From NCBI GenBank assembly GCA_017557405.1, contig JAFYYV010000010.1:1-61728 (forward strand): a DNA stretch of 61,728 nt. Direction: 5' to 3'. Of this stretch, positions 33,659-60,012 are shown piece after piece. How positions within the stretch are numbered: position 1 is the stretch's first letter; each line of letters begins with the position of its first letter. The stretch is from Prevotella sp. (lineage in GTDB: Bacteria; Bacteroidota; Bacteroidia; Bacteroidales; Bacteroidaceae). A program made the position numbers and the translations under genes. The notes under the pieces are model-generated. The model saw only the letters and a list, made by a program, of their open reading frames with translations. It did no database searches and had not been told where the DNA came from.

Positions 33659-35656
33659 ATGAAAACCTTATCATCCCTAACCTCTTACCTTTTATCTCTT
33701 GTCTTTATATCTGTTATTACATCGTGTAATAACGAAGTGAAAGACGCCAAGTTGCTCGACCAACTCACGGAGGGCGATGTCCAGATTTCGCGCATCGACC
33801 CCACCGACTGGTATGTCGGACTGAAGAACCCCACCTTACAGCTCATGGTCTATGGACAGGGCATCCGCGAGGCTGAGGTCAGTGTCCGCGGGGCGAAGCT
33901 CGATTCGCTCGTGCGACTCGACTCACCCAACTACCTGCTCGTCTATCTCAACGTGAAGGGTGCGAAGGCTGGAAACCTGCCACTCACCTTCAAACTCGAT
34001 GGCAAGGAGACCACGGTGGCCTACCAGCTGAAGGAGCGCGAGATGGCTGGCAGCGAGCGCAAAGGATTCACCAATGCCGATGTGCTCTATATGCTCATGC
34101 CCGACCGATTCGCACAAGGGACCGAAAAACCGTTGGAGTTGAAAGATGAATCATCCTTCATCCTTCGTCCTTCATCCAATTACAAGGTGGACCGCTCCCA
34201 ACCCTCTCTGCGCCATGGAGGCAATCTGGAGGGCATACGGCAGCATCTCGATTACTTCAACGAGCTGGGCGTCACAGCCCTGTGGTTCACGCCCGTGTTG
34301 GAAAACAACTCACCCGACAGCGAGAATGGTTTTTCAACCTATCACGGCTATGCCACCACCGACTACTATCGTGTTGACCCGCGTTTCGGCACGAACGAAG
34401 ACTATCGTCGTCTGGTCAGCGAAGCCCATCAGAAAGGCTTGAAGGTCGTGATGGACATGATTTTCAACCATTGTGGTTTCGAGCATCCTTGGACGAAGGA
34501 CATGCCTTCGAAAGACTGGCTCAACACTCCCGACTGGCTGACGGAATCTGAGCAGAGCGGACACGACCCCATGACGGGATTTGGCGATAATGCAGGCGAG
34601 AGCAAATACCTGCAGACCTCCTACAAGCTCACGCCCGTGCTCGACCCCTATGCCTCGAAGGTGGACCTCAAGGAGACTGTCGAAGGATGGTTCGTGCCCT
34701 CCATGCCCGACCTCAATCAGCACAACCCCCACGTGATGCGCTACCTCATCCAGAACTCCAAGTGGTGGATAGAGACCGTAGGCATCGACGGCATTCGCAT
34801 GGATACCTATCCCTATGCCTACGCCGACGCGATGGCCGAGTGGATGAAGGAGCTCGACGAGGAATATCCCAACTTCAACACCGTGGGCGAGACGTGGGTT
34901 ACCGAACCCGGCTACACCGCCGCCTGGCAGAAAGATAGCAAAATGGCACCGGCCAACTCCTACCTCAAGACCGTGATGGACTTCTCCTTCTTCGACAAAC
35001 TCAACCAAGCCAAGCACGAGGAGACCGATGGGTGGTGGAACGGCTTCAATCGCATCTACAACTCCTTCGTCTACGACTATCTCTATGTGAATCCCTCGAG
35101 TGTGATGGCGTTCATCGAAAACCACGACACCGACCGTTATCTCGGCAACGGATGCGACACCCTCTCCCTCAAGCAGGCGCTCGCCCTGCTGCTCACCATC
35201 AACCGCACCCCACAGCTCTACTACGGCACCGAGGTGCTCATGAACGGTACGAAGGAGGTCACCGATGGCAATGTCCGCCGCGACTTCCCGGGCGGATTCC
35301 CAGGCGACACCCACAACTGCTTCACCGCCGTAGGACGCACACCCGCTGAGAACGCCATGTTCAACTGGCTCTCCCGACTGCTCCATTGGCGTCAGGCCAA
35401 TCCCCTCATCATCGAGGGCAGCCAGACGCAGTTCATTCCTTGGAAGGGAGTCTATGTCATCGCCCGCCAACACGATGGACATGCTTCGCTCACCATCCTC
35501 AACGGCACCTCCCAACCTGCTGTTTTCGAGGTGGCCCGCTATGCTGAAATCATCGGACAGACACAGCAAGCCCTTGATATCATCACTGAGAAAGCTGTGC
35601 CTCTCGACAAAGACATCGAACTCTCTCCGCGACAAACGCTCATCCTCGCCTTCTAG
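33659..35656 (+). CDS. SusA-like GH13 maltodextrinase/neopullulanase lipoprotein
   Basis: This is a 665-residue GH13 enzyme of the neopullulanase/cyclomaltodextrinase type. The signal peptide ends in a lipobox ITSC (Cys23), so it is lipid-anchored, facing the periplasm or the surface. An N-terminal beta domain (about 30-130), the barrel and a C-terminal beta domain (about 580-665) follow. The barrel has LMPDRFAQG (about 146-154), MIFNHCG, Asp382 in GIRMDTYPYA, Glu411 in GETWVT and Asp490 in ENHDTDR, all the catalytic residues. Two stretches are built of 7-bp DNA repeats: the signal peptide (33673-33707) and an insertion after FAQGTEKP (34151-34178, reading SSFILRPSS). It is last in the malQ unit, before a terminator. 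SusA and SusG are both possible counterparts; overall order favours SusA. Confidence 0.92.
   Translation: MKTLSSLTSYLLSLVFISVITSCNNEVKDAKLLDQLTEGDVQISRIDPTDWYVGLKNPTLQLMVYGQGIREAEVSVRGAKLDSLVRLDSPNYLLVYLNVKGAKAGNLPLTFKLDGKETTVAYQLKEREMAGSERKGFTNADVLYMLMPDRFAQGTEKPLELKDESSFILRPSSNYKVDRSQPSLRHGGNLEGIRQHLDYFNELGVTALWFTPVLENNSPDSENGFSTYHGYATTDYYRVDPRFGTNEDYRRLVSEAHQKGLKVVMDMIFNHCGFEHPWTKDMPSKDWLNTPDWLTESEQSGHDPMTGFGDNAGESKYLQTSYKLTPVLDPYASKVDLKETVEGWFVPSMPDLNQHNPHVMRYLIQNSKWWIETVGIDGIRMDTYPYAYADAMAEWMKELDEEYPNFNTVGETWVTEPGYTAAWQKDSKMAPANSYLKTVMDFSFFDKLNQAKHEETDGWWNGFNRIYNSFVYDYLYVNPSSVMAFIENHDTDRYLGNGCDTLSLKQALALLLTINRTPQLYYGTEVLMNGTKEVTDGNVRRDFPGGFPGDTHNCFTAVGRTPAENAMFNWLSRLLHWRQANPLIIEGSQTQFIPWKGVYVIARQHDGHASLTILNGTSQPAVFEVARYAEIIGQTQQALDIITEKAVPLDKDIELSPRQTLILAF
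33673..33707. repeat. 7-bp-periodic repeat in the SusA-like signal peptide
   Basis: Five heptamers (ATCCCTA, ACCTCTT, ACCTTTT, ATCTCTT, GTCTTTA) run through codons 5-17 of the gene and encode the hydrophobic part of the signal peptide. Confidence 0.6.
34151..34178. repeat. 7-bp tandem repeat inside the SusA-like gene
   Basis: Four heptamers (TCATCCT, TCATCCT, TCGTCCT, TCATCCA) lie in frame between the FAQG motif and the RHGG motif of the GH13 barrel. Confidence 0.85.
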
Positions 35657-35670
35657 AAAAATAAACAGAA

Positions 35671-35698
35671 AAGACCATCAATCGATGGTCTTTTTCTT
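35671..35698 (+). terminator. Terminator of the malQ unit
   Basis: AAGACCAT and ATGGTCTT form a perfect 8-bp stem with a 6-base loop, followed by TTTCTTTG. It begins 14 bases past the stop codon of the SusA-like gene. Confidence 0.88.
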
Positions 35699-35700
35699 TG

Positions 35701-35788
35701 TCATTTGTGGCTTTTGACCACGTCATTGCATAGCTTTGACCGCCTCATAGCCTAGCTTTGAGACTGTCATTGCATAGCTATGACAAAG
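35701..35788. repeat. Four degenerate 22-bp tandem repeats
   Basis: Units begin at 35701, 35723, 35745 and 35767, each opening with TCAT. The last three carry TAGCTTTGA or TAGCTATGA at the same place, and the first has GGCTTTTGA. The period is exactly 22 bp, two helical turns. Confidence 0.8.
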
Positions 35789-35802
35789 TCGAAAGAGCAT
35801 TT

Positions 35803-36023
35803 TGTAACATGTAACAATTGTAACATGTAACATTTAGCACCTTCCACATATGCAAGACAGCCTCGTCTCCTATAGGTTATTATAATATTATATTATAATA
35901 AAATAATTAATATTATACATTATGTAATTTTACCCATATAAATCTATCTATTTGTAATCTCATTTTCATCTCGGAAATATGGAACGACCTTATTGTTACA
36001 TGTTACAAATGTTACATGTTACA
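35803..36023. mobile_element. MITE-like element with 30-bp terminal inverted repeats
   Basis: The left end (35803-35832) and right end (35994-36023) are inverted repeats that differ at one of 30 positions. Each end is itself two copies of a TGTTACATGTTACA-type 14-mer separated by two bases. The interior is A/T-rich and non-coding. A second copy, in the opposite orientation and cut by the window edge, starts at 61593 and shares the end and long interior blocks such as TTTTCATCTCGGAAATATGG. Two copies with conserved ends and no gene suggest a small non-autonomous mobile element or an interspersed repeat. Confidence 0.7.
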
Positions 36024-36079
36024 TTTTCCCTGAAATGGTTTGCATTTGAGATGACGGGTGTGTGTTGTATTATCTGCAT

Positions 36080-36109
36080 AAAAAAAGAACGCAAGACAGG
36101 CTTGCGCTC
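36080..36109 (-). terminator. Terminator of the esterase gene
   Basis: On the minus strand GAGCGCAAG and CTTGCGTTC form a 9-bp stem (one G-T pair) with a 5-base loop, followed by seven T residues. It lies about 30 bases past the esterase stop codon. Confidence 0.88.
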
Positions 36110-36139
36110 TTCGTTTTTATCAACTGTCCGTATGGTTGA

Positions 36140-37087
<948 letters not shown>

Positions 37088-37171
37088 CTACGTTTGATCG
37101 TTTTGGTTTAATTGTTCTTTCAGCCCAATCCCATATTGTCTCATTTTGGATATAGGTTTGTGCTTTTTCTG

Positions 37172-37204
37172 CAAAGGTAGTGTTTTCTGGAGAAAAAAAG
37201 CAAA
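37172..37204 (-). promoter_or_regulatory. Promoter of the esterase gene
   Basis: On the minus strand TTTG (37201-37204), a 21-bp spacer and TACCTTTG (37172-37179) match the Bacteroidetes promoter pattern. The leader to the ATG is about 120 bases. Confidence 0.75.
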
Positions 37205-37242
37205 TAAATTTGAATCTTCTTTACTTAATCGAAATATTTCAT

Positions 37243-37250
37243 TATCTTTG
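37243..37250 (+). promoter_or_regulatory. -7 promoter box of the regulator gene (TATCTTTG)
   Basis: TATCTTTG matches TAnnTTTG but ends only five bases before the ATG at 37256. Transcription from it would start at or within a base or two of the start codon, giving a leaderless message. Confidence 0.55.
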
Positions 37251-37255
37251 CGTGC

Positions 37256-43722: not shown

Positions 43723-45495
43723 ATGAAGACTAAAATATTCAACATCTATAGCACGCTCTGTGCACTCTGTCTTCTCGGTGTGCTTTGTGTCTCATGCGAG
43801 GACAAACTGGAACTGACGAACCCGAACCAGCAGACGACAGGAACGTTCGGCAACACGGCTGAGGACTTGGAGGAATGCGTGATTGCTGCTTACAACCATA
43901 TCCGTATGGAGGGCTCATTTGCTCGTGTGGGCTACACGATTGACGTGTGCCGCGGTGACGAGGTATGGAACTCCTCTCAGGTTTGGTATATGCCTTTCGA
44001 TGACATGAACGACCCAGTGACTGACGAAATCAGCTTCTGGCCTTGGCGTGAATGGTATTATACGATCAACGTGTGTAATTTCATCCTTTCTCGTACAGGC
44101 GAAGACAATGGTGCGCTGAACGAGCAGATGAAACGAATCAAGGGTCAGGCTCTCTTTATCCGTGCCCTTTCCTACTATAATCTAGCTGGATATTATCAGA
44201 CTCCGCCACTGATTACCGATTATAACACTTATTCGACGCTTGATGGTCTTTATGCCACCAACAGCACATACGACGATGTACTCGACTTCGTGGAGAAGGA
44301 CTTCCAAGAGGCTATGTCTTTGCTGCCCAGCCGTAGTGAAGGTGGTGAGTGGGCCAACGGTCGTGCTACCAGTGGTGCTGCCGCAGGCTTCTATGCCCGC
44401 ACTTTGATGATGCGCCACAAGTATAGCGAGGCTTTGGCAGTTCTGAAGGCTATCATTGGCGGCCAGTATGGTACTTACAAACTTATGGCCAACTATGGTG
44501 ACAACTTCCGTGAGGGACCTGCTTATGAGAATAACGATGAGAGTCTGTTTGAGGTTCAGTTCTTGGATTACGGTTCGCAGGGTGTAGATGATGAATGGAC
44601 ACCTGTGAACACCAGCCCGAACGCCACACAAGGTCATGCTATCGAGAGTAACTACGGTCCTGGCGACTGTGGTGGATGGGCCGACCTTTCCGCTTCTCCT
44701 TGGCTCTACAATCTCTTCAAGGCCGAGCGCACTACGAGTGGAAAACTCGATCCGCGTCTCTATTGGACTATAGGTACCTATGAGGCCGATTGGGATGGCT
44801 TCGAATATGGAAATGTCTGCTATACGTTGCCTTTGACAGCCGATGCGCCGATGGTGACCAACAACAACAACGGTGGTCTGCCTATTGCCAAGAACACCAA
44901 CCTGCGCACAGGTCTTTATGACAAGGTGGTGACAGGTCTGCACTGCGGTATCAACCTCCGCATCATGCGCTATTCGGATGTTCTGTTGCGTGCTGCCGAG
45001 TGCGAGAACGAGATCAATGGTCCCACCCAGCAGGCTATCGATTGGATCAACCAGGTTCGTAACCGCGCACAGTTGGCAAACTTGAACCTTGCCGACTTCA
45101 ATACGAAGGACAAGCTCTTCGAGCAGATTGCCAATGTGGAGCGTCCGAAGGAGTTCGGTTGTGAGTATGGTCGTGGCTTCGATTTGCTCCGCTGGGGATT
45201 CTTCTACAGCGCCGACCGTCTGCAGCAGTTGAAGGAACATGGTACATTCCGCCGTTCTGCCGACCGCAGTCGTGTCAAAGAGGCTGTCAGCTATGCTGAC
45301 ATCGCCACTGACGCTGAGCTGAAGAGTTCTTACGACACTTATGTACAAGGTCATGAGTTCCTTCCCATCTATCAGGGATTGACCACCAAGAACCCGAACC
45401 TGAAGGGCAACTCAGCCAATGAGAGTTCCGACAACTCGGGCTACTTCATCAGCAATGGTTGGACAGTGCATCCTGTGGTGAACTTGGGAAAATAA
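43723..45495 (+). CDS. SusD-family substrate-binding lipoprotein (arabinan locus)
   Basis: This is a 590-residue outer-membrane lipoprotein of the SusD/RagB family. The signal peptide ends in the lipobox CVSC (Cys25), followed by E-D. The TPR-like core has RIKGQALFIRALSYYNLAGYY (about 143-163), and the C-terminal part has LRIMRYSDVLLRAAECENEI and the RPKEFGCEYGRGFDLLRWG segment. In-frame starts at 43708 (TTG) and 43714 (ATG) are possible; 43723 gives the most regular signal peptide. It follows its SusC partner by 15 bp. Confidence 0.94.
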   Translation: MKTKIFNIYSTLCALCLLGVLCVSCEDKLELTNPNQQTTGTFGNTAEDLEECVIAAYNHIRMEGSFARVGYTIDVCRGDEVWNSSQVWYMPFDDMNDPVTDEISFWPWREWYYTINVCNFILSRTGEDNGALNEQMKRIKGQALFIRALSYYNLAGYYQTPPLITDYNTYSTLDGLYATNSTYDDVLDFVEKDFQEAMSLLPSRSEGGEWANGRATSGAAAGFYARTLMMRHKYSEALAVLKAIIGGQYGTYKLMANYGDNFREGPAYENNDESLFEVQFLDYGSQGVDDEWTPVNTSPNATQGHAIESNYGPGDCGGWADLSASPWLYNLFKAERTTSGKLDPRLYWTIGTYEADWDGFEYGNVCYTLPLTADAPMVTNNNNGGLPIAKNTNLRTGLYDKVVTGLHCGINLRIMRYSDVLLRAAECENEINGPTQQAIDWINQVRNRAQLANLNLADFNTKDKLFEQIANVERPKEFGCEYGRGFDLLRWGFFYSADRLQQLKEHGTFRRSADRSRVKEAVSYADIATDAELKSSYDTYVQGHEFLPIYQGLTTKNPNLKGNSANESSDNSGYFISNGWTVHPVVNLGK

Positions 45496-45521
45496 ACATT
45501 AAACATTAAAGATTAAATATT
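45494..45521. repeat. 7-bp repeat abutting a start codon
   Basis: Four heptamers (AAACATT, AAACATT, AAAGATT, AAATATT) fill the gap from the SusD stop codon exactly to the next ATG at 45522. Confidence 0.85.
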
Positions 45522-47432
45522 ATGAGACATCTCAATAAAATAGCGACCGCATTCTGTGCAGCAGCCCTTGGATTGCTAAGCATGACGAGCTGCGAGGGCG
45601 GTGACCTGTACAGTGTGGATTCTCCCGACTGGATTTCGGCAAAGGCAGATTCTATTGCCAATTCCAAAACCCAGGGCGGCGATGAAGAGATTGAAGGTCT
45701 GGAAGAGGACGTATATACCATCGGTGCCACTGATTTCTCCTCTGGCTGGTGGGCCGCGTTCACCAAGTATTACCAGATCCCCGAGAATGGTGTGTGGGAT
45801 GCTGTGTTCAATATGAACATCAACCCCAATGCTTCGAATACCTATAAGAATTTTGCACTCATCATCACTAACGATGAGGATCGTGGTGCCGCCAACTATA
45901 AGGAGTATGGTGCCATCCGATACGATCATCAACCGAGTGGAAACTCGGAGTGGGGTGATTACATCGACCGCAGTTTGGTGGAGAGTACTCTTACTTTCAA
46001 CACCGATACTGATGCTGGAGTGGACAAACTCGGTGGTAAGGTTAGATTGACCATCGACCGCAGAGGTGGTGGATTGATTGTCACGATGACCAATGGTACG
46101 GTAATCAAGACTTACACGCAGAAATCACCTCTGGCGAATCTCAATGCTGATGCATCGAACACGACCATTCGTGCGTTCCTCGTTCCTGAGGGCTCTTATA
46201 TCGGCTTCTTGGGTTCAACCATCGAACCCATTGGTGGCTTTACCTCTGCTGAGGACAAGATGCCTTTGTCGATGACGCTGAACAGTGTTCCTCGCAAGGT
46301 GCTCCAGGGTACGGAACTTGCTGATGCATTCGCTAATGTTACCGCTACTGTCGAGTTCGAACAAGCTGTATCGAAGACTGTGCCGGCCAGCGATCTGACT
46401 TTCCAGGCCATTCCTGACATGAACCAGTTGGGTTCAAAGACCCTCGTGGCTGTCTACAACAAGACATATAAGGGGGAGAATTGCAGTCCTATCATTGCCT
46501 ACGCTACCTTCGATGTGGTTGATAAGATGTATACATCGCTGGGTGCTACTGACAACTCGACAGGTTGGTGGGGTGCACACTCAGATAATATCAAGGTAGG
46601 CCCCAAAGAGACCTTCGTCAGCACTTTCACCAACTATACAAGTGGTGCCAACAACTGGAACAACTTCGTGGTAGTGCTCTGCAGAGCTGACAACAGCGAG
46701 TATGCCGTTGTGCGTGCCGACAACTACGGATGGGGTGATGGTTATGCTGCCTGCACACCTGTTGGAACTCAAGGTGATTGGGGTGCTTGGCTCGCAGCAA
46801 TGGATGGTGCCAAAGTGACCACCTACGTGACGAACAATGGTGATGGAACAGCTGATGTGAAAGCCGTGATGGAGGGAACGGATGGCAACACCTATACGCA
46901 GGAGTATCTTGGCATCAACACCGTTGATCCCGACAACTTCTACTTCCGCTTCACGGTGGATGGTTGCCATCTTGAGTTCGACAATGTCATAGGTGCTGAA
47001 GACAACACTACAGGATGGTGGGGCGCTCATTCTGCGATGATCAACGTACCCGTTGGCAAGATCTATTCGACTCGCATCAAGAACTTCACCAACGGAGCCA
47101 ACAACTGGAACAACTTCGTGGTGGTGCTCACACGTGAGGACAATAGCGAATATGCCGTTGTTCGTGCCGACAACTATGGATGGGGCGACAGCTATGGAGC
47201 CTGCACACCGAGTGGCGGACCAGCCGATTGGGGTACTTGGTTGAAAGCTATGGATGAGGCAATGGTTACCGTCTCTGTTACCAACAAGGGTGGCTCAGCC
47301 GATGTGAAGTGCGTGATGGTGGGCAACGATGGAAATACCTACTATCAGGATTATCTTGGCATCAGTCCTATCGATGGTGACAACCTCTACTTCCGCTTCA
47401 CCGTTGATGGTAGCCATCTGGTCTTTGAGTAG
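45522..47432 (+). CDS. Putative surface glycan-binding lipoprotein with repeated beta-domains
   Basis: This is a 636-residue lipoprotein (lipobox MTSC, Cys24) in the position where loci of this type encode a SusE-like surface glycan-binding protein. I do not recognise the family by name. It contains three related domains starting at about residues 68, 341 and 491, each opening G-A-x-D-x-(S/T)-(S/T)-G-W-W-(G/A)-A. The last two, 150 residues apart, share long blocks such as ANNWNNFVVVL and SEYAVVRADNYGWGD. An Ig-like region (about 245-330) separates the first from the second. The many conserved Trp and Tyr residues would suit sugar stacking. It lies between SusD and GH43, so binding of arabinan is the simplest guess. 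Confidence 0.7.
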   Translation: MRHLNKIATAFCAAALGLLSMTSCEGGDLYSVDSPDWISAKADSIANSKTQGGDEEIEGLEEDVYTIGATDFSSGWWAAFTKYYQIPENGVWDAVFNMNINPNASNTYKNFALIITNDEDRGAANYKEYGAIRYDHQPSGNSEWGDYIDRSLVESTLTFNTDTDAGVDKLGGKVRLTIDRRGGGLIVTMTNGTVIKTYTQKSPLANLNADASNTTIRAFLVPEGSYIGFLGSTIEPIGGFTSAEDKMPLSMTLNSVPRKVLQGTELADAFANVTATVEFEQAVSKTVPASDLTFQAIPDMNQLGSKTLVAVYNKTYKGENCSPIIAYATFDVVDKMYTSLGATDNSTGWWGAHSDNIKVGPKETFVSTFTNYTSGANNWNNFVVVLCRADNSEYAVVRADNYGWGDGYAACTPVGTQGDWGAWLAAMDGAKVTTYVTNNGDGTADVKAVMEGTDGNTYTQEYLGINTVDPDNFYFRFTVDGCHLEFDNVIGAEDNTTGWWGAHSAMINVPVGKIYSTRIKNFTNGANNWNNFVVVLTREDNSEYAVVRADNYGWGDSYGACTPSGGPADWGTWLKAMDEAMVTVSVTNKGGSADVKCVMVGNDGNTYYQDYLGISPIDGDNLYFRFTVDGSHLVFE

Positions 47433-47433
47433 A

Positions 47434-47461
47434 ACAATTGACAATTTATAATTGACAATTT
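47434..47461. repeat. 7-bp repeat before the GH43 start codon
   Basis: Heptamers ACAATTG, ACAATTT, ATAATTG, ACAATTT run to within four bases of the ATG at 47466. Confidence 0.85.
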
Positions 47462-47465
47462 ACAA

Positions 47466-49427
47466 ATGATAAGAATAAAAAAGGTCGCATGGGAAGACTT
47501 CCTTACCCCTCTGAATAGGGGGGTGAGGGGGCTCTTCCTCCTATTGGCGCTCACAGCTTGTGGAGGTAGCGATGATGATCCCGAACCTGATCCGACACCC
47601 GTGAATCCCATTAAGGTTTCTACGCCTGTCGTCAGCAGCATTACCTCGTCATCGGCCATCGTCACAGCTACTGTTGCACCCACTACGGGAGTTACACAGA
47701 TGGGTTTTTGTTATTCTACACAACAGAATCCAACTACGGGCGACAAGACTGTCAACTCGGCCACCAGTAGCATGAACGTCACGCTCAATGCTCTCATTCC
47801 CAATACCCTCTACCATGTGCGTGGGTTTGCTGTGGCTGCTGGAAAAACGGTCTATTCCGAGGATGTTAGTTTCACTACGGAACCCTCTTCGGGTGGTGGT
47901 ACTAATTCACTTGATGACTATGTTGCTCCCACCTACGTTGATGACTATCGTAGTATTTCCGCGTGGAGTCAGCGTTCGCAGTGGAACCTTGCTAATGTGC
48001 ACGACCCATCGGTGATGTTGGCCGAAGACGGTTATTACTACATGTATCAAACCGATGCTTCGTATGGTAATGCACATGCTGCAGGCGGACATTTCCACGC
48101 ACGTCGTTCGAAGAACCTCGTTGATTGGGAATATCTCGGAGGTGTCATGAGCGCCGCACCCTCTTGGGTGAAGGACACTCTCAACATCAGCCGCCAACGT
48201 CACGGACTCCCTACCATCAACAGCCCACAGTACGGCTATTGGGCTCCCTGCGCCCGCAAGGTGAAGAACGGCCTCTATCGCATGTACTATTGCATTGTCA
48301 TCGACAACTACATCAAGACAGGAAAAGCCAACACAACAGCCAACTTCGATAACTCGTGGACCGAGCGTGCTTTCATAGGCGTGATGGAAACCAGCAACCC
48401 TGCTTCCAACAAATGGGAAGACAAAGGTTTCGTACTCTCGTCTATGTCCGATAGGGGAAAAAATTGGGCGCGCAACTCTACTGACGATTGGAGTGGCTAC
48501 TTCCGCTATAATGCGATTGACCCATCGTACATTATCACCCCAGAGGGTCAGCATTGGCTCATCTTCGGTTCGTGGCACTCTGGTTTTGCTGCTCTGCAGC
48601 TCAATGCTGACACGGGAAAGCCCATCAACAAGATGCCTGAGTTCTGCACCACACTTTCCGAACTCAACAAGGTCATGAAGCATGTCTACACCCGCAAAAA
48701 TGGTGATCGTTGGCAGGGTTCGGAGGCTCCTGAGGTGGTCTATCATGATGGCTACTACTATCTGTTCATGGCCTACGATGCCCTCGATGTTCCCTACAAC
48801 ACGCGTGTTGTACGCTCGCAGAACATCGATGGTCCCTACTACAATATGGCAGGTGCGAACGTGACGAATGGTGGTGATGCATTGCCTATCATGACCCATC
48901 CTTACAAGTTCTCGACAGGAAATGGTTGGGTAGGCATCTCCCACTGTGCCGTGTTCAACGATGGCGCTGACAATTGGTATTATGCCTCGCAAGGACGTTT
49001 CCCGACAACAGCAGGTGGTAATGCTCCAAATGCCGTGATGATGGGACATGTGCGCTCCATTCGATGGATAAGTAGTGGATGGCCAGTCGTGATGCCTGAG
49101 CGCTATGGTGCCGTTCCACAAGTGGCAATATCTGAAGATGAACTTGTAGGCAAGTGGGAGCACATCGACCTTGCATACTCTTATGGCAAGCAGAAGACGG
49201 CTACCACGATGGAATTGGCTGCCGATCACAAGGTTGCTTCGGGAGCATGGAAGGGAAAGACATGGAGCTTTACAGCCTCCACTAATACGCTGAAAGTCGG
49301 CGATGTCGAGTTGATGTTGCAACGCGAGTGCGACTGGGAGGCTACTCCTCGCCGTGCCACCATTGTCTATGCTGGGTTGTCCTCCAATGGTAAATCCACC
49401 TATTGGGGAAAGAAACAGAGCAATTAA
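47466..49427 (+). CDS. GH43 arabinan endo-1,5-alpha-arabinanase, lipoprotein
   Basis: This is a 653-residue GH43 enzyme predicted to cut alpha-1,5-arabinan. The N-terminal signal ends in a lipobox LTAC (Cys32). A fibronectin-like or Ig-like domain (about 45-135) precedes the five-bladed propeller. Catalytic residues are Asp180 in HDPSV (base), Asp352 in NAIDPSY (pKa modulator) and Glu420 in GSEAPEVVY (acid). The C-terminal beta domain (about 555-653, GKWEHIDLAYSYG) is typical of endo-arabinanases. A C/G-rich palindromic repeat (47500-47531) forms codons of the signal region, reading FLTPLNRGVRG just before the hydrophobic core, which makes an unusually long n-region. It is last in the arabinan operon, before a strong terminator. 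Confidence 0.92.
   Translation: MIRIKKVAWEDFLTPLNRGVRGLFLLLALTACGGSDDDPEPDPTPVNPIKVSTPVVSSITSSSAIVTATVAPTTGVTQMGFCYSTQQNPTTGDKTVNSATSSMNVTLNALIPNTLYHVRGFAVAAGKTVYSEDVSFTTEPSSGGGTNSLDDYVAPTYVDDYRSISAWSQRSQWNLANVHDPSVMLAEDGYYYMYQTDASYGNAHAAGGHFHARRSKNLVDWEYLGGVMSAAPSWVKDTLNISRQRHGLPTINSPQYGYWAPCARKVKNGLYRMYYCIVIDNYIKTGKANTTANFDNSWTERAFIGVMETSNPASNKWEDKGFVLSSMSDRGKNWARNSTDDWSGYFRYNAIDPSYIITPEGQHWLIFGSWHSGFAALQLNADTGKPINKMPEFCTTLSELNKVMKHVYTRKNGDRWQGSEAPEVVYHDGYYYLFMAYDALDVPYNTRVVRSQNIDGPYYNMAGANVTNGGDALPIMTHPYKFSTGNGWVGISHCAVFNDGADNWYYASQGRFPTTAGGNAPNAVMMGHVRSIRWISSGWPVVMPERYGAVPQVAISEDELVGKWEHIDLAYSYGKQKTATTMELAADHKVASGAWKGKTWSFTASTNTLKVGDVELMLQRECDWEATPRRATIVYAGLSSNGKSTYWGKKQSN
47500..47531. 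repeat. C/G-rich palindromic repeat inside the GH43 signal region
   Basis: CCCCT and AGGGG arms around CTGAAT sit in a TTACCCCT...GGGTGAGGGG context. It resembles C/G-rich palindromes at 58172-58204, 59929-59962 and 60202-60244. Confidence 0.65.
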
Positions 49428-52595: not shown

Positions 52596-52621
52596 TTCGA
52601 TTCGTATCAGGTTGTATGGAA

Positions 52622-53671: not shown

Positions 53672-53701
53672 TTTGGAACTCGATATTTTTGAGTACCTTT
53701 G
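53672..53701 (+). promoter_or_regulatory. Promoter of purL
   Basis: TTTG (53672-53675), an 18-bp spacer and TACCTTTG (53694-53701) approach the Bacteroidetes consensus. The leader to the purL ATG is about 36 bases and no riboswitch-like structure is evident. Confidence 0.65.
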
Positions 53702-53743
53702 CATGCGTAAAAAGAGTACACAATTATAATCGAGCTATAGCAA

Positions 53744-56700
53744 ATGATTCTTTTCTTTAAGACTCCGCAAGGGAGTGTGATTGCGACAGATGTTGACCAC
53801 CAGTTGGATCAACAAGAGGTAAGTGAGTTATGTTGGCTTTATGGCGATGCTACGCTGCTGGACGAGAGCGAGTTGCCGGGCATCTTTGTCGGTCCGCGCC
53901 GCGAGATGGTGACCCCGTGGGCAACCAATGCCGTTGAGATTACCCAAAACATGGGATTGAAGGGCATTCAGCGCACCGAGGAGTATTTCCCCATTGACAA
54001 TTCAAGATTGACAGTTGACAATGAAGTTCCCGAAGATGCATACGATCCGATGCTTCAGCGTGTCTATAAAGGTCTTGACCAGCGTGTGTTCACCGTGCGC
54101 ATTGAGCCAGAGCCCATCAAGTTGGTTGAGAACCTCGAGGAATACAACGAGCAGGAAGGTTTGGCACTCTCGCCCGAGGAAATCGAGTATCTGCACAAGA
54201 TAGAGAAGCAGAACGGACGTCCGCTGACTGATTCCGAGATTTTCGGTTTTGCGCAAATCAACTCTGAGCACTGCCGCCACAAGATTTTCGGTGGCACGTT
54301 CATCATCGATGGCGAGGAGAAGGAATCTTCGTTGTTCTCGATGATCAAAAAGACCACCCAGGAGAATCCCAACAAGATATTGTCGGCCTACAAGGACAAT
54401 GTGGCTTTCTCACAAGGTCCTATTGTCGAGCAGTTTGCTCCAGCCGATCAGTCAACTGCCGATTGGTTCCGCGTGAAGGAGATTGAGAGTGTCATCTCGC
54501 TGAAGGCCGAAACACACAATTTCCCCACCACCGTAGAGCCTTTCAACGGTGCTGCTACGGGTACGGGTGGTGAGATTCGCGACCGTATGGGTGGTGGAGT
54601 AGGTTCGTGGCCCATTGCAGGAACGGCTGTTTATATGACGGCTTATCCACGTATCCAGGAGGACGAGAATACGGATTCTGAACTCGGAACGCTCCGGGAT
54701 TGGGAGGACATCCTGCCTGTTCGTCAGTGGCTCTATCAGACTCCTGAGCAGATATTGATCAAGGCTTCGAATGGTGCCAGCGACTTCGGAAACAAGTTCG
54801 GACAACCACTCATCTGCGGTTCTGTGCTCACCTTTGAGCATCAAGAAAAGCCTCTTACCTCTGACCTCTCACCTCTTACCTCTCCAAGGTACGCCTACGA
54901 CAAAGTCATCATGTTGGCTGGTGGTGTGGGATATGGCACGAAGCGCGACTGCTTGAAGAAAGAGCCTCAGAAGGGCAACAAGATAGTGGTGGTCGGTGGT
55001 GATAACTATCGCATCGGACTTGGCGGTGGAAGTGTATCTTCGGTCGATACGGGTCGCTATTCGAATGGCATCGAGTTGAATGCCGTGCAGCGTGCGAACC
55101 CCGAGATGCAGAAACGTGCCTACAACCTCGTTCGCGCATTGGTAGAAGAAGACAACAACCCCGTTGTTTCCATCCACGATCATGGTTCGGCAGGCCACCT
55201 GAATTGCCTGTCAGAGCTTGTCGAGGAATGTGGTGGTGAGATTGAGATGGACAAGCTGCCCATTGGCGACAAGACGCTCTCTGCAAAGGAAATCATCGCT
55301 AACGAGAGTCAGGAGCGCATGGGATTGCTCATCGATGAGAAGCATATCGACCATGTGCGCCGCATTGCCGAGCGCGAGCGTGCTCCGCTGTATGTGGTGG
55401 GCGAGACGACAGGCGATGCTCATTTCTCGTTCAAGCAAGCCGATGGCATAAAGCCTTTTGATTTGGATGTGGCTCAGATGTTCGGTCATTCACCGAAGAC
55501 CATCATGCGCGATAACACGGTGGAACGCCATTATGAGGATGTGAAATATGATGCGAAGGATTTGAATAAATACCTCGAGCGCGTGCTCCAATTGGAGGCT
55601 GTGGCTTGTAAGGATTGGCTCACCAACAAGGTCGACCGTTCGGTGACAGGTAAGATAGCCCGCCAGCAGTGTCAGGGTGAGATTCAGTTGCCGTTGTCCG
55701 ATTGTGGTGTTGTGGCCCTCGACTATCGTGGAAAGAAGGGTATTGCCACCGCCATCGGTCATGCTCCGCAAGCAGGATTGGCTTCGCCTGAGGCAGGTTC
55801 TGTGCTCTCTGTGGCCGAGTCGCTCACGAATCTTGTGTGGGCTCCGCTCGCCGATGGATTGAACAGTGTATCGCTCTCAGCCAACTGGATGTGGCCGTGC
55901 CGCTCTCAGGAAGGTGAAGATGCCCGCCTCTATGCGGGTGTGCAGGCATTGTCCGACTTCTGTTGCGCCCTCCACGTGAATGTGCCTACCGGAAAAGACT
56001 CGCTTTCGTTGACACAGCAATATCCCAATGGCGAGAAGATTATCTCGCCGGGAACCGTGATTGTCAGTGCTGGTGGTGAGGTGAAAGATGTGAAGAAGGT
56101 TGTGTCGCCCGTGTTGGTCAACGACAAGAACTCCTCGCTCTATCACATCGATTTCTCGTTCGATGAGCAGCGCCTTGGTGGTTCTGCCTTCGCACAGAGC
56201 CTCGGAAAGATTGGCGATGATGTTCCCACGGTGAAGAATCCCGAGTACTTCGTTGATTGCTTCAACGCCATTCAGGAACTCATCCGCCGTGGATGGATCA
56301 TGGCTGGACACGATATCTCGGCTGGTGGATTGATCACCACGTTGCTCGAGATGACCTTCGGCAATGCCAAGGGTGGTATGCACATCAACCTCCACTCACT
56401 CAACTGTACCGACATCGTAAAGACACTCTTTGCCGAGAATCCCGGTGTGGTCATTCAGGTGAGTGACGAGCATAAATACGACCTGCGCGAATATCTCGAG
56501 GATTGTGGCGTGGGCTTTGCTAAGATTGGTTATTCCACTCCTTACGAGCGTACCATTGTGGTGAAGAATGGCGATGACGAATATTCGTTCGACATTGATG
56601 CCCTGCGCGATGTGTGGTACAAGACCAGCTATCTGCTCGACCGCAAGCAAAGCTTCAACGGAATGGCCGCTGAGCGTTTCAAGAACTACAAACATCAGCC

Positions 56701-57541
56701 CATCGAGATGCGGTTCAACACCAACTTCACGGGCAAACTTTCGCAATACAAACTCAATCCTGAGCGTTGGAAGAGAACCTCCAGCAAGCATGAACCTGCT
56801 CCCAAAGCCGCCATCATCCGCGAGAAGGGTACCAATGGCGAGCGCGAGATGGCTTATTCGCTCTATCTGGCTGGCTTCGATGTGAAAGACGTGATGATGA
56901 CCGACCTCATTACAGGCCGCGAGACGCTTGACGAAGTCAACATGATTGTCTTCTGTGGTGGATTCTCCAATAGCGACGTCCTCGGCTCGGCCAAAGGATG
57001 GGCAGGAGCGTTCCTCTACAATCCGAAGGCAAAAGAGGCACTCGACCGCTTCTATGCTCGCGAAGACACCCTCTCGCTGGGTATCTGCAACGGTTGCCAA
57101 CTCATGGTGGAGCTCGGACTTTGTGGCACATCGAATGCGAAGATGCTGCACAATGTCAGCCATAAGTTCGAGAGCGAGTTCATTACGTTGCGCATACCGC
57201 AGAACAACAGCGTGATGTTCTCATCGCTCAGCGGCAACAAACTCGGCATCTGGGTCGCTCACGGCGAAGGACGCTTCTCGTTGCCCGAGGGTGAGGAGCA
57301 CTACAACGTCATCGCCAAATACAACTATTCGGGTTATCCTGGCAATCCTAATGGCAGCGACTTCGATGTGGCAGGTATCTGCTCACAGGATGGTCGCCAT
57401 CTCGCCATGATGCCCCATCTGGAGCGTGCCATCTTCCCCTGGCAGAATGCTTGGTATCCCGCCGCCCACCGCAACGATGAGGTGACCCCGTGGATTGAGG
57501 CATTTGTCAATGCAAGGAAGTGGATAGAATCAAGGCGTTAA
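53744..57541 (+). CDS. purL: Phosphoribosylformylglycinamidine synthase (single-chain)
   Basis: PurL makes FGAM from FGAR, glutamine and ATP in purine synthesis, in the cytoplasm. The 1265-residue chain carries the synthetase domains (EQFAPADQSTADWF, LKAETHNFPTTVEPFNGAATGTGGEIRD near 255-285, and SIHDHGSAGHLNCLSELVEE near 475) and the C-terminal glutamine amidotransferase domain with Cys1115 in GICNGCQ and the HLERAIFPW segment. Two stretches look inserted and are built of 7-bp DNA repeats: DNSRLTVDN near residues 84-93 and KPLTSDLSPLTSP near 369-381, the latter between LTFEHQE and YAYDKVIM. Both keep the frame. The stop codon lies inside an 11-bp perfect hairpin. It appears to be transcribed alone or with the chromate transporters that follow. 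Confidence 0.97.
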   Translation: MILFFKTPQGSVIATDVDHQLDQQEVSELCWLYGDATLLDESELPGIFVGPRREMVTPWATNAVEITQNMGLKGIQRTEEYFPIDNSRLTVDNEVPEDAYDPMLQRVYKGLDQRVFTVRIEPEPIKLVENLEEYNEQEGLALSPEEIEYLHKIEKQNGRPLTDSEIFGFAQINSEHCRHKIFGGTFIIDGEEKESSLFSMIKKTTQENPNKILSAYKDNVAFSQGPIVEQFAPADQSTADWFRVKEIESVISLKAETHNFPTTVEPFNGAATGTGGEIRDRMGGGVGSWPIAGTAVYMTAYPRIQEDENTDSELGTLRDWEDILPVRQWLYQTPEQILIKASNGASDFGNKFGQPLICGSVLTFEHQEKPLTSDLSPLTSPRYAYDKVIMLAGGVGYGTKRDCLKKEPQKGNKIVVVGGDNYRIGLGGGSVSSVDTGRYSNGIELNAVQRANPEMQKRAYNLVRALVEEDNNPVVSIHDHGSAGHLNCLSELVEECGGEIEMDKLPIGDKTLSAKEIIANESQERMGLLIDEKHIDHVRRIAERERAPLYVVGETTGDAHFSFKQADGIKPFDLDVAQMFGHSPKTIMRDNTVERHYEDVKYDAKDLNKYLERVLQLEAVACKDWLTNKVDRSVTGKIARQQCQGEIQLPLSDCGVVALDYRGKKGIATAIGHAPQAGLASPEAGSVLSVAESLTNLVWAPLADGLNSVSLSANWMWPCRSQEGEDARLYAGVQALSDFCCALHVNVPTGKDSLSLTQQYPNGEKIISPGTVIVSAGGEVKDVKKVVSPVLVNDKNSSLYHIDFSFDEQRLGGSAFAQSLGKIGDDVPTVKNPEYFVDCFNAIQELIRRGWIMAGHDISAGGLITTLLEMTFGNAKGGMHINLHSLNCTDIVKTLFAENPGVVIQVSDEHKYDLREYLEDCGVGFAKIGYSTPYERTIVVKNGDDEYSFDIDALRDVWYKTSYLLDRKQSFNGMAAERFKNYKHQPIEMRFNTNFTGKLSQYKLNPERWKRTSSKHEPAPKAAIIREKGTNGEREMAYSLYLAGFDVKDVMMTDLITGRETLDEVNMIVFCGGFSNSDVLGSAKGWAGAFLYNPKAKEALDRFYAREDTLSLGICNGCQLMVELGLCGTSNAKMLHNVSHKFESEFITLRIPQNNSVMFSSLSGNKLGIWVAHGEGRFSLPEGEEHYNVIAKYNYSGYPGNPNGSDFDVAGICSQDGRHLAMMPHLERAIFPWQNAWYPAAHRNDEVTPWIEAFVNARKWIESRR
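53993..54020. repeat. 7-bp tandem repeat inside purL (first)
   Basis: Heptamers ATTGACA, ATTCAAG, ATTGACA, GTTGACA lie in frame in the N-terminal region. The same TTGACA-type heptamer builds the intergenic repeat at 47434-47461. Confidence 0.85.
54851..54885. repeat. 7-bp tandem repeat inside purL (second)
   Basis: Five heptamers (CCTCTTA, CCTCTGA, CCTCTCA, CCTCTTA, CCTCTCC) are translated as PLTSDLSPLTSP within the synthetase core. Confidence 0.9.
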
Positions 57542-57556
57542 CGCATTAACGCCTTG
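57531..57556 (+). other. Hairpin enclosing the purL stop codon
   Basis: CAAGGCGTTAA and TTAACGCCTTG form a perfect 11-bp stem with a 4-base loop, and the TAA stop lies in the 5' arm. No T run follows, so it is not a standard terminator. It may protect the message end or slow release. Confidence 0.75.
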
Positions 57557-57561
57557 ATAAG

Positions 57562-57617
57562 GTATGAGGTGTGAGATGTGAGTTCAAAATTCATAATTCA
57601 TAACTCGTAATTCATAA
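57562..57617. repeat. Run of eight heptamers upstream of the chromate transporter genes
   Basis: GTATGAG, GTGTGAG, ATGTGAG are followed without a break by TTCAAAA, TTCATAA, TTCATAA, CTCGTAA, TTCATAA. Two different heptamer families share one 7-bp phase. The run ends 11 bases before the ATG at 57629. Confidence 0.88.
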
Positions 57618-57628
57618 TTATATCGCAT

Positions 57629-58168
57629 ATGGATAAGATATACTGGGATAGTTTTAAGACCTTCTTCAAGATAGGAGCCTTCACGCTGGGAGGCGGCTAT
57701 GCCATGATTCCCATCATCGAATCGGAAGTCATGGAGAAGAACAAGTGGGTGAGCCGTGAGGAGTTCATCGACCTCATTGCTGTTGCCCAAAGCTGTCCTG
57801 GTGTATTTGCCATCAACATCTCCACGTTTATCGGCTACAAGCTGCGGCGCGAGCGGGGAGCCATCTGCTCAGCCCTCGGAACGGCATTGCCCTCGTTCTT
57901 CATCATCCTCCTCATCGCCATGTTCTTCCATCATTTCATGGAAGTAGGGTGGATAGCCGCCATGTTCCGCGGCATTCGTCCTGCTGTGGTAGCTTTGATA
58001 GCCGTACCAACATTCAACATGGCAAAGAGTGCCAACATCACCCTCGCCACCTGTTGGATTCCCATCGTCTCGGCTCTGCTCATCTGGAAGCTTGGGGTCA
58101 ACCCCATCTTCATCATCATCGCCGCCGGCGTAGGTGGCTATCTCTACGGACAATTCTTGAAAGAATAG
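57629..58168 (+). CDS. Half-size chromate (CHR family) transporter, first subunit
   Basis: This is a 179-residue inner-membrane protein of the CHR chromate transporter family in its short, single-domain form. The N-terminal signature FFKIGAFTLGGGYAMIPI (about 11-28), the AQSCPGVFAIN segment (about 53-63) and several hydrophobic helices support this. Short CHR proteins occur as adjacent pairs that probably assemble as heterodimers, and the second member follows after 93 bp. The family exports chromate in some bacteria. In gut-type Bacteroidetes the real substrate is unproven. Confidence 0.92.
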   Translation: MDKIYWDSFKTFFKIGAFTLGGGYAMIPIIESEVMEKNKWVSREEFIDLIAVAQSCPGVFAINISTFIGYKLRRERGAICSALGTALPSFFIILLIAMFFHHFMEVGWIAAMFRGIRPAVVALIAVPTFNMAKSANITLATCWIPIVSALLIWKLGVNPIFIIIAAGVGGYLYGQFLKE

Positions 58169-58171
58169 AAG

Positions 58172-58261
58172 CCCCCACCCAACCTCCCCCTGTAGGGGAG
58201 GGGGCAGAAGAACCCCATTAACCCCATAAATAACCCCAATAAGCCCAATAAGCCCATAAAA
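58172..58261. repeat. C/G-rich palindrome and 9-bp repeat between the CHR genes
   Basis: A palindrome with CTCCCC/GGGGAG arms (58184-58200) in a run of C and G is followed by 9-bp units (ACCCCATTA, ACCCCATAA, then ATAACCCCA, ATAAGCCCA, ATAAGCCCA) that reach the next ATG. No gene lies here. Confidence 0.75.
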
Positions 58262-58837
58262 ATGATATTCCTCGAACTCTTCTACACCTTCTTCATGATA
58301 GGCCTCTTTGGATTTGGCGGCGGCTACGGCATGTTGTCGCTCATCCAAACCGAGACGGTCGTCCATCATGGATGGCTCACCACCGCTGAGTTCACGAATA
58401 TCGTGGCCGTCAGTCAGATGACGCCAGGACCTATTGGAATCAACTCAGCCACCTATTGTGGCTATACGGCCGTTGAGAAAACCACAGGAAGTCAGCTCAT
58501 GGCCGTCTTGGGCTCTTGTACCGCCACCTTTGCCCTCGTGCTACCCTCGCTCATCCTCATGATTCTCATCTGCAAGATGTTCATGAAATATATGAACACG
58601 CAGGCCGTGCAAAGTGTCTTCCAAGCCCTGCGCCCTGCTGTCGTAGGACTTCTGTTGGCTGCCACCCTGCTGCTCATGAACGCTGATAATTTCTCATCGC
58701 CCAGCGTCAATCCTTGGCAGTTCTGGATTAGCATCGCCATCTTTGTCGCCACCTTCGTGGGCACGAAATTCGTCAAGATCAATCCCATCCGGATGATCCT
58801 CTTTGCCGCCTTCGCAGGACTTCTCCTGCTATATTGA
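58262..58837 (+). CDS. Half-size chromate (CHR family) transporter, second subunit
   Basis: This is a 191-residue inner-membrane protein, the partner of the gene just upstream. It has the CHR signature FFMIGLFGFGGGYGMLSLI (about 9-27) and the matching SQMTPGPIGINSATYCGY segment (about 53-70), where the first subunit has AQSCPGVFAIN. About six hydrophobic helices follow. The two proteins differ enough to be distinct subunits of one transporter rather than a recent duplication. Confidence 0.92.
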   Translation: MIFLELFYTFFMIGLFGFGGGYGMLSLIQTETVVHHGWLTTAEFTNIVAVSQMTPGPIGINSATYCGYTAVEKTTGSQLMAVLGSCTATFALVLPSLILMILICKMFMKYMNTQAVQSVFQALRPAVVGLLLAATLLLMNADNFSSPSVNPWQFWISIAIFVATFVGTKFVKINPIRMILFAAFAGLLLLY

Positions 58838-58863
58838 TTTCTTTCAAACTATTCTACTATCCT

Positions 58864-59919
58864 ATGAACAAATCAAAAACTATTCTAATGACTTTGCTGG
58901 CTTTGGCCACCTGCAGTTCGCTCTTCGCTCAGCGTCCCCGACAGCGCACTGCCTTCAACACCGACACCCTCATGGTTCACGACCCCGTACTGGCTTTTGA
59001 AAACGGCACGTACTACCTTCTTTCCACAGGCATGGGCATCAGTTGGGCTACCTCCGAAGACCGCCAGACGTGGACCGTGCAACCCACGATGTTCATGAAT
59101 GAGGTGCCACAGTGGACCCACGACTTCGTTCCTGGCTTCCGCAATCATGTCTGGGCGCCCGACATCATCCGCTGGCACGGACGTTGGTGGCTCATGTATT
59201 CGTGCTCCACGTTCGGAAAGAACACCTCCGCCATCGGTTTGCTCTCCACGCCTTCGCTCGCTCATCCTGAGTGGAAGGACGAGGGTTGCGTGGTTGCCAG
59301 CAACTCACCGAAGTCGTTCGATGCTACGGCGCATGTCGATTGGAACGCCATCGACCCCAATATTGTTATCGACCGCAACGATCAACCTTGGCTCACGTTC
59401 GGCTCGTTCTGGGATGGCATCCAACTCGTCCGGCTCGACTCCACCATGCACATCATGCGAGGTTTCCAGCCATCCACCATCGCCCGCCGCTATGGTTCGC
59501 CAATGCCCGATATCCAGAACCCCACCTCCGAGTTCGCGGGTCCTAATGCCATCGAGGCGCCATTCATCTATCAGCGCGATGGATGGTACTATCTCTTCGT
59601 GAGTTGGGATTATTGCTGCCGAGGCTCTCAGAGCACCTACCGCGTTGTCTGCGGCCGTTCTCGCAACATCACGGGGCCCTATGTGGATCGCGAGGGCAAA
59701 CGGATGCTGGATGGAGGTGGAACGTTGGTCATCGAGGGCGATAAGACGCTCTTCGAAGCTGCCGGCCACTGTGCCGTCTACGACCTCCCCATGTCAGGAA
59801 AACCTCAGCAAACGCTCTTCATCTGCCACGGCTACAGTGTGCCCATGCAAGGCCAATCCATCCTCGTCCAGCGCATCCTCGAGTGGGAGGAAGGGTGGCC
59901 AAAAACAATTCACAATTGA
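58864..59919 (+). CDS. Secreted GH43 arabinan endo-1,5-alpha-arabinosidase
   Basis: This is a 351-residue exported GH43 enzyme, a single five-bladed propeller. The signal peptide (MNKSKTILMTLLALATCSSLFAQ) fixes the start at 58864 rather than ten codons upstream. Catalytic residues appear in MVHDPVLAF (Asp, base), WNAIDPNIV (Asp) and NAIEAPFIY (Glu, acid). CGRSRNITGPYVDREG near 265-280 is typical of arabinanases. It lacks the extra C-terminal domain of the GH43 lipoprotein at 47466-49427. Its last codons (KTIHN) come from a 7-bp repeat, so the original C-terminus may have been changed. It is separated from the arabinan operon by about 9 kb of unrelated genes. Confidence 0.9.
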   Translation: MNKSKTILMTLLALATCSSLFAQRPRQRTAFNTDTLMVHDPVLAFENGTYYLLSTGMGISWATSEDRQTWTVQPTMFMNEVPQWTHDFVPGFRNHVWAPDIIRWHGRWWLMYSCSTFGKNTSAIGLLSTPSLAHPEWKDEGCVVASNSPKSFDATAHVDWNAIDPNIVIDRNDQPWLTFGSFWDGIQLVRLDSTMHIMRGFQPSTIARRYGSPMPDIQNPTSEFAGPNAIEAPFIYQRDGWYYLFVSWDYCCRGSQSTYRVVCGRSRNITGPYVDREGKRMLDGGGTLVIEGDKTLFEAAGHCAVYDLPMSGKPQQTLFICHGYSVPMQGQSILVQRILEWEEGWPKTIHN

Positions 59920-60012
59920 CAATTAAAAGCCCCCTCCCGGCCTCCCCCAAAAGGGTGAGGGGAAGGAAACAGCCAAATCGATAAATCAATTGTAAATCGT
60001 AAATCGTCAAAT
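59905..60012. repeat. Repeat cluster after the second GH43 gene
   Basis: Heptamers ACAATTC, ACAATTG, ACAATTA (59905-59925) overlap the GH43 stop codon. A C/G-rich palindromic repeat follows (59929-59962). GTAAATC, GTAAATC, GTCAAAT heptamers lie at 59992-60012. The rest of the gap to 60112 has short inverted pieces such as CGCTACGCGC/GCGAAGCG but no gene. Confidence 0.75.

Follow-up and report, generated by a model that had tools for sequence, protein, structure and literature searches.

Which process places short tandem arrays of 7-bp units both between genes and inside them in a Prevotella genome? The question is raised by contig JAFYYV010000010.1 of Prevotella sp. (assembly GCA_017557405.1; 61,728 bp, analysed at its full length and called the window below), where a preliminary description pointed to nine such places. 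Our answer, to which we give a probability of about 0.6, is that the arrays are long-unit simple sequence repeats (SSRs), which grow in place by tandem duplication, are also copied about, and are tolerated in gene gaps and protein loops.

In such a scheme, arrays of 7-bp units, and in intergenic DNA of this genome almost equally often of 8-bp units, would grow, shrink and be homogenised in place as single units or small groups of them are duplicated, probably through replication slippage, which we infer as the enzymology. Copies of pre-formed pieces would also reach other sites, either singly, in inverted pairs or together with short hairpin modules, and this copying would give each genome its favoured words. 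Arrays would persist where extra DNA does little harm, that is, in short gene gaps, where a unit may hold the upstream stop codon, and in protein loops, where only frame-preserving outcomes would survive.

Arrays in the window

Segments were scored along lag-matched DNA (match +1, mismatch -2). At lag 7 the whole window contains seven segments with a score of at least 10 and four of at least 14, against averages of 0.10 and 0.00 in 30 Markov-2 shuffles. L-numbers below denote sampled loci and G-numbers genomes of relatives; comparisons are between species, with one genome per species. The nine places of the preliminary description are all present, and they form the following features.

33673..33707, plus strand: CCTCTTA-type diverged array in the signal-peptide-like start of the cyclomaltodextrinase (score 6; DNA matches of 90-94%; Pfam PF00128/PF09087/PF10438)
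34151..34178, plus strand: TCATCCT array within the cyclomaltodextrinase gene (score 14; 8 residues more than each of L334-L338)
45493..45522, plus strand: TAAACAT array filling the gap from the SusD-like gene (PF07980) to ATG 45522 (score 17)
47434..47465, plus strand: ACAATTG/ACAATTT array that fills the 33 bp upstream of the GH43 gene starting at 47466 (Tandem Repeats Finder (TRF) periods 7 and 14; more than 60% of the gap is array)
53993..54020, plus strand: ATTGACA diverged array in a purL loop (score 6; loop 27 nt longer than in the five nearest relatives)
54851..54885, plus strand: CCTCTTA array in a purL loop (score 17; AAGAGGT family, which recurs at three further sites in the own sample)
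57560..57619, plus strand: hairpin between purL and chrA, upstream of ATG 57629, made of TRTGARN units followed by TTCATAA units, an inverted pair from a single word family (fold; chrA product a PF02417 chromate transporter)
59905..59924, plus strand: ACAATTC array over the stop codon of a GH43 gene (end of the open reading frame (ORF) at 59919), left arm of an inverted pair (TRF, ORFs, fold)
59925..59987, plus strand: GC-rich palindromic module between the two arms (by eye)
59988..60012, minus strand: AATTGTA/AATCGTA array, right arm facing 59905 (TRF; pairing in the fold)

Matches among the positions compared at lag 7 are 19/28 (33673), 18/21 (34151), 19/21 (45494), 16/21 (47434), 14/21 (53993), 23/28 (54851), 37/49 (57562), 12/14 (59905) and 11/14 (59992). 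The segment score is at least 10 at seven of the nine sites and 6 at both 33673 and 53993. By score alone the latter two are within chance, though both have support from outside. The region 33682-33715 matches position C43:30540 at 94% and two further places of the same genome at 90-91%, and the purL loop around 53993 is 93 nt long, compared to 66 nt in all five of the nearest relatives aligned. The two low scores are what speaks for chance or ordinary low complexity as the source of the arrays. That explanation is refuted by the seven segments observed against 0.1 in shuffles and, in the larger samples described below, by lags 4-6 and 13, which give 0-2 segments with a score of at least 13 where lag 7 gives 27 and 83.

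Several arrays had been said to end near start codons, and indeed those before ATG 45522 and ATG 47466 are directly adjacent to them, while the one before ATG 57629 ends 9-11 bp upstream; the gene-calling script put a later start than ATG 45522. Four sites lie in coding sequence, as proposed, and additionally 59905 overlaps a stop codon. The coding arrays are in frame and diverged. The TAA stop of the SusD-like gene is inside the first unit of the 45493..45522 array. At 57562 two heptamer stretches do adjoin, but they are not two families in one phase: they are largely mutual reverse complements and make one hairpin. The arrays at 59905 and 59992 pair with each other in the fold, around the GC-rich palindrome.

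The window contains a carbohydrate-use locus with genes for a cyclomaltodextrinase, a regulator with propeller repeats and an AraC-type helix-turn-helix, SusC-like and SusD proteins and GH43, followed by purL and then by two chromate transporter genes. The nearest named relatives of the window purL are rumen Prevotella and Prevotellaceae metagenome-assembled genomes, with at most 84% identity in the best segment; judged by these named relatives, the genome is that of a rumen-type Prevotella.

GC-rich palindromes of the type CCCTCCC...AAAGGAGGG were observed at 59925-59975 of the window, in the purL gaps of L023, L038, L053 and L113, and also in frame in the purL loops of L025, L108 and L084.

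Periods of seven and eight

The own genome was covered by sampled stretches of 804 kb in total (two sets of 20), with genes called by a simple script. Sixteen of the 20 stretches of the first set (382 kb) are on four contigs previously matched by array-bearing DNA, and this set is therefore biased. The remaining four, together with all 20 of the second set, are the blind stretches (435 kb). The sample of relatives consists of 80 loci (1.49 Mb) picked by purL alone.

The blind stretches contain 27 segments with a score of at least 13 at lag 7, 25 at lag 8, 5 at lag 9, 2 at lags 11 and 12, and 0 at lags 4-6, 10 and 13; with a score of at least 16 there are 21 at lag 7 and 17 at lag 8. The period had been described as always seven. 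This does not hold in the blind stretches, nor in the window itself, where one segment at lag 8 and two at lag 9 accompany the four at lag 7 (score at least 13). The proposed comparison with neighbouring lags thus came out in two ways: lag 7 is enriched over lags 4-6 and 9-13, but not over lag 8 between genes. Within called genes lag 7 leads lag 8 by 22 to at most 2 in all own stretches. The same stretches contain 57 lag-7 arrays (33 intergenic, 22 coding, 2 mixed), 30 of them with four whole units, and 28 lag-8 arrays, of which 26 are intergenic. In the first set, segments with a score of at least 16 number 26 at lag 7, 5 at lag 8 and 0-2 at other lags from 2 to 13, with 17 at lag 14 (a multiple of 7), 5 at lag 15 and 10 at lag 22; the lead of 26 to 5 comes largely from the sampling bias.

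Among the 80 loci of relatives, segments with a score of at least 13 number 83 at lag 7, 29 at lag 8 and 0-16 at the other lags among 4-6 and 9-13. With a score of at least 12 the counts are 92, 35, 22, 12 and 14 at lags 7 to 11, respectively, 1-3 at lags 4-6 and 61 at lag 22. A lag-7 segment of this score is present in 32 loci, and 48 have none. That something makes and spreads 7-bp arrays, as had been suggested, is thus borne out: their number greatly exceeds that in shuffles and that at lags 4-6 and 9-13. The single contig of G016 has 8 lag-7 and 13 lag-22 arrays in 400 kb, and therefore draft assembly alone is no sufficient cause of the arrays; the script's gene calls are poor for this genome (coding fraction 0.52).

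One relative, G041, displays mainly an octamer: AAACAACY occurs in tandem 240 times in its 2.2 Mb and 0 times in five other genomes, the reversed control also giving 0. The G041 sample, mostly motif-picked (17 of 20 stretches are on motif contigs), contains 61 lag-8 and 9 lag-7 arrays. Free of this bias are the whole-genome pattern count and the purL locus L090, which was not motif-picked and has six lag-8 and no lag-7 arrays. In three blind G041 stretches (28.6 kb) no lag-7 or lag-8 array was found.

Arrays of 22-bp units were also observed, at 35713-35784 of the window (GTCAAAGCTATGCAATGAC-type) and in L003, L008, L009, L012 and L020; the words are different ones in G016, G040 and elsewhere. 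The own sample contains 25 of them, every one outside called genes. Units of 10 bp (AGTTAAAGGG type) stand in inverted order in L038, L060 and other loci, and 9- and 11-bp units occur in a few relatives.

Word families

A family was defined as a word up to rotation and strand, and arrays with a score of at least 11 were considered; in the null, each array was replaced by a heptamer from within 1.5 kb (200 draws). The 74 arrays of all own stretches belong to 33 families, and 110 of 2,701 array pairs have a family in common (null mean 2.8, maximum 7). For the 38 arrays and 22 families of the blind stretches the count is 29 of 703 pairs (null mean 0.7, maximum 3). The process is therefore not one that acts regardless of sequence, as the preliminary description had it, since unlinked arrays have families in common. 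In G040, with 44 arrays, a family is common to 166 of 946 pairs (null mean 1.0), and AACTDTG occurs in tandem 79 times (reversed control 0). All 20 G040 stretches are on contigs matched by the motif search, and thus both the pair count and the share of AACTATG arrays there (17/39) are inflated. Among 121 lag-7 arrays of 32 genomes, near-identical pairs make up 16.8% of the within-genome pairs, compared to 9.7% (maximum 14.1%) in label shuffles.

The commonest own families are AAGGATG, AACACCC, AACATTG, AAGAGGT and AAATTGT. Coding and intergenic arrays are both present in six of the eight own families displayed, and the family of the TCATCCT array at 34151 recurs at nine other arrays of the own sample. 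Such sharing is consistent with the copying of pre-formed pieces.

The purL-chrA junction and the purL loops

At the purL-chrA junction, unit and copy number differ between related species. The starts of chrA were judged here by the downstream coding sequence, without a start-site predictor. In L024, L025, L032 and L089, chrA follows directly at the purL stop and there is no array. The copy number of a AAAGGTAA-type octamer is about one in L030, two in L034 and three in L106. The units are AAAATTGA in L105, AATTAAG in L042, GCATTAA in L031, CACTCTA/CACTATG in L041 and GCTTAAT in L100. In L107 the TAAGTGA units consist of the stop plus GTGA of the junction, and the window has the TATGAGG/TTCATAA hairpin.

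Loops of purL, a conserved enzyme, are filled by repeats that are otherwise placed between genes. In L025 and L026, whose purL genes are 94% identical, the same loop contains arrays of different units; the two also have common flanking changes at this loop, missing from four others displayed. The loop at 54851 contains an array of the same kind in L023 and none in L106, L105, L025, L104 and L089. It is longer in the window by 30 nt than in L106 and L025 and by 27, 9 and 3 nt than in L105, L104 and L089, which hold other, non-repeat sequence there. In the cyclomaltodextrinase loop at 34151 the window exceeds every one of five array-free relatives by 24 nt.

Compared to the columns kept by at least half of 104 purL sequences, there are 17 insertions of at least 4 residues with a lag-7 score of at least 10. 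Only 2 of the 17 are multiples of 7 residues, where 2.4 are expected by chance, although the insertions are not all independent. Growth in coding sequence solely by three-unit steps is ruled out by this count. The insertions of L071 and L084 in one and the same loop are palindrome-like by eye, with heptamer arms of different words.

One possibility is that slippage acts only locally, on random resident words, and that nothing is copied from site to site. The identity of the L107 unit with the junction sequence fits it, as does the observation that heptanucleotides are the commonest long-unit class in most genomes (the 2007 survey of Mrazek, as summarised in PMC4679880). We disfavour it and consider it quite improbable: it does not account for the sharing of families, blind stretches included, for the composite modules described below, or for empty purL loops that lack a CCTCTTA seed.

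A further candidate is an undescribed array-writing activity in some Prevotella-like lineages, which seems unlikely to us. It would be a trans-acting factor or templated copying with a favoured word length and sequence and a palindromic layout of preferred polarity, and it would rewrite old sites when the word changes. Its favoured length would be 7 in most relatives, 8 in G041 and both in the own genome. If such an activity existed, orthologous junctions and loops would keep the array and exchange the unit.

Position relative to genes

The own sample (804 kb, partly known array contigs) has 2.21 lag-7 arrays per 10 kb outside genes and 0.34 inside. In co-directional gaps of 30-60 bp, 10.3% of the bases belong to arrays (lag 7 or 8), versus 1.1% in gaps longer than 400 bp; in G040 the values are 15.8% and 0.2%. 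The array covers the whole upstream stop codon in 8/38 co-directional array gaps of the own genome, 2/25 of G040, 5/36 of G041, 4/12 of G045, 2/8 of G042 and 2/11 of G043. We infer near-neutrality of such places. The octamer arms of G041 are found in 31/155 co-directional, 0/24 convergent and 1/23 divergent gaps. No gap-type preference was observed in the own genome, G040, G043 and G045, and convergent gaps are preferred in G042 (6/10 vs 8/43). Location in co-directional gaps is thus rejected as a general rule: it holds for G041, fails in four genomes and is reversed in one.

By analogy with what was proposed for TAACTGA repeats, the repeated word might be under selection as a sequence-specific signal, bound by an RNA- or DNA-binding protein that acts on gene gaps. 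Consistent with this would be the genome-specific words (AAACAACY in G041, AACTDTG in G040), the three window arrays that end 0-11 bp before an ATG, and the location of nearly all G041 arms in co-directional gaps. However, the same families occur inside coding genes, the preference for a gap type is absent or convergent in the other genomes, and related species have different words at the same junction. We therefore regard a binding site as a rather improbable explanation.

Inverted pairs and dispersed modules

In the relatives, 19 of 92 arrays have an inverted partner within 300 bp, compared to 10 of 272 controls (score 12). The own sample gives 6/42 vs 6/125 at this score and 1/42 vs 4/125 at score 16. 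Inverted arms are found at a minority of arrays, and most arrays have no inverted partner. The G-bearing arm comes first in 22 of 28 inverted pairs outside G041 (p 0.004) and in 21 of 21 in G041 and L090. This polarity reads alike on both strands and is therefore a property of the element. Stop codons pointing inward are denser in the left arm in 18 pairs and in the right arm in 5 outside G041; in G041 there is barely a difference, 11 vs 8. Neighbouring arms in G041 are ordered minus-plus in 17 cases, plus-minus in 0, plus-plus in 8 and minus-minus in 6. G040 contains six copies of the word CGACC-N-GGTCGCTTGCAAG, and AACTATG-family units are located no more than about 25 bp from every one of them.

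These observations might indicate that the arrays are arms or edges of palindromic mobile elements, similar to miniature inverted-repeat transposable elements (MITEs) or bacterial interspersed mosaic elements, with a spreading hairpin whose terminal structure would be the tandem units. The excess of inverted partners in relatives, the polarity (22:6 and 21:0), the arm order in G041 and the CGACC..GGTCG word beside arrays at all six places in G040 support it. On the other hand, the excess in the own sample is small and most arrays are unpaired. Moreover, the profile PF01797 (repetitive extragenic palindromic (REP)-type, Y1_Tnp transposase) has one weak match in the own genome (24.9 bits), one to three matches in G010, G016, G042 and G045, and none in G040, G041 and G043. 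We consider this possibility unlikely, albeit the strongest of the alternatives. Transposition by REP-associated tyrosine transposases (RAYT) as a general driver is rejected on the PF01797 counts.

The own genome contains seven copies of an 80-bp core, with 83-100% identity to the query, and partial copies as well. The lag-7 or lag-8 score in the adjoining 60 bp reaches 7 on 9 of 14 core sides, compared to 101 of 1,200 intergenic control windows: on both sides in L227, L232 and L233, on one side in L228, L229 and L230, and on neither in L231. The unit of the flanking array varies from core copy to core copy. A similar core is carried by relatives, in tandem in G010, and arrays are absent from those displayed; therefore the core and the arrays are distinct, and it is in the own genome that they come together. 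A module resembling 59925..59987 is located downstream of the core copy in L229, as compared by eye. GC mini-hairpins beside arrays are a weak signal (5/48 vs 37/1,618 in the own genome, 6/37 vs 45/800 in G040). In a separate count, a dispersed module directly adjoins 25 of 98 intergenic arrays and 73 of 504 control positions. How often module edges touch arrays (19/122 vs 2/610) was also counted, but this statistic was dropped, as the masking of arrays itself forces such edges.

The core could possibly be a structured RNA or DNA element. Its copies (L227-L233 in the own genome, L268-L289 in relatives) contain near-invariant GGCTGCAC...TTTGCAC stretches, and the inner and outer stems vary between copies, by eye in a seemingly compensatory manner. 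The fold is just mildly better than in shuffles (z -1.64). An Rfam RNA in the core or in the TGTAACA element was rejected, as six loci gave no match at E up to 1. The tandem copies in G010 adjoin sequence that resembles the promoter motif TAnnTTTG.

Growth in place with additional copying remains our preferred explanation, and several points weigh against it. The inverted-pair polarity is not predicted by neutrality, and neither is the location of the G041 arms. The 25 of 98 arrays that abut a module mean that composite copying explains a minority of arrays. The ratio of 7- to 8-bp units is uncertain, because part of the lag-8 arrays (families AACAATGT and AACATTGT) belong to the TGTAACA-armed element and are not free arrays.

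Comparison with known repeats

The preliminary description knew of no counterpart in this group; however, TAACTGA direct repeats are reported from Beggiatoaceae, cyanobacteria and five Bacteroidetes, and other heptamer repeats from two of the latter (PMC4679880). Our arrays resemble them in the 7-bp units, the frequent location directly upstream of a start codon, the stop triplets of the units in all frames and the patchy distribution. Unlike the TAACTGA repeats, one word across phyla, the families here differ between genomes. TAACTGA itself is not among the families of two lists, which give up to 40 and up to 25 families.

Porphyromonas gingivalis belongs to the same bacterial order as Prevotella. 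Its BrickBuilt MITE likewise has tandem units within a small dispersed intergenic element with inverted ends, but the unit is a 23-bp minisatellite, and the element forms one family and is always intergenic (PMC4596501). Rickettsia palindromic elements are similarly read in frame inside genes (as reviewed in PMC10969869); they are about 150 bp long and form conserved families, whereas here the arrays are short and only some purL insertions are palindromic by eye.

The heptameric SSRs of Xanthomonas and Nostoc, GGGAATC and GGGGA(T/C)T, consist mostly of four units and are mostly intergenic, near the end of the upstream gene (PMC4692102). Few of them lie between divergent genes, many form inverted pairs, and length and sequence vary among close relatives. 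The heptamer arrays described here share these features. They differ in having many A+T-rich words, where one G-tract word per genome is described, in occurring also in purL, and in the octamers beside the heptamers. A G-tract in the unit, as in the Xanthomonas-type G-quadruplex heptamers, is not a feature of the commonest own families; among the five, AACACCC (GGGTGTT) alone has a three-base G run. As in heptameric long SSRs generally, tandem 7-bp units are above expectation and mostly intergenic. The survey of 2007 mentioned above covered units of 5-11 bp, and long SSRs in prokaryotes were considered again by Mrazek and Huang in 2014 (PMC4060949). Unlike such genome-wide counts, the present comparison follows single sites across species and ties them to shared families and modules.

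Similar repeats are thus already known in other bacteria, and tandem repeats of approximately 7 bp are common in several unrelated bacterial groups. For Prevotella, no report of heptamer arrays was found in literature searches on tandem or heptamer repeats, which had partial coverage. New here are the many A+T-rich word families per genome, the proportions of 7- and 8-bp units that differ between relatives, the polarity of pairs and the array-bearing purL loops. As this lineage has many related species that differ in unit, unit length and copy number at the same junction, slippage, copying and selection can be told apart in it. Small hypothetical genes and odd start-site calls in such genomes may be repeat artefacts.

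Other repeats in the window

At 35790-36040 and 61589-61727 a dispersed element was observed, approximately 250 bp in length, whose TGTAACATGTAACA arms stand in inverted order around an A+T-rich centre; the window itself ends in one. At least 40 matches, counting the query and its reversed arms, are present in the own genome (40 of 48 candidates scored), many of them at contig ends, and a related sequence is present in G016. Two copies searched had no Rfam match. Further tandem repeats of 8, 18 and 23 bp are located at 48-74, 4419-4492 and 6522-6587, respectively.

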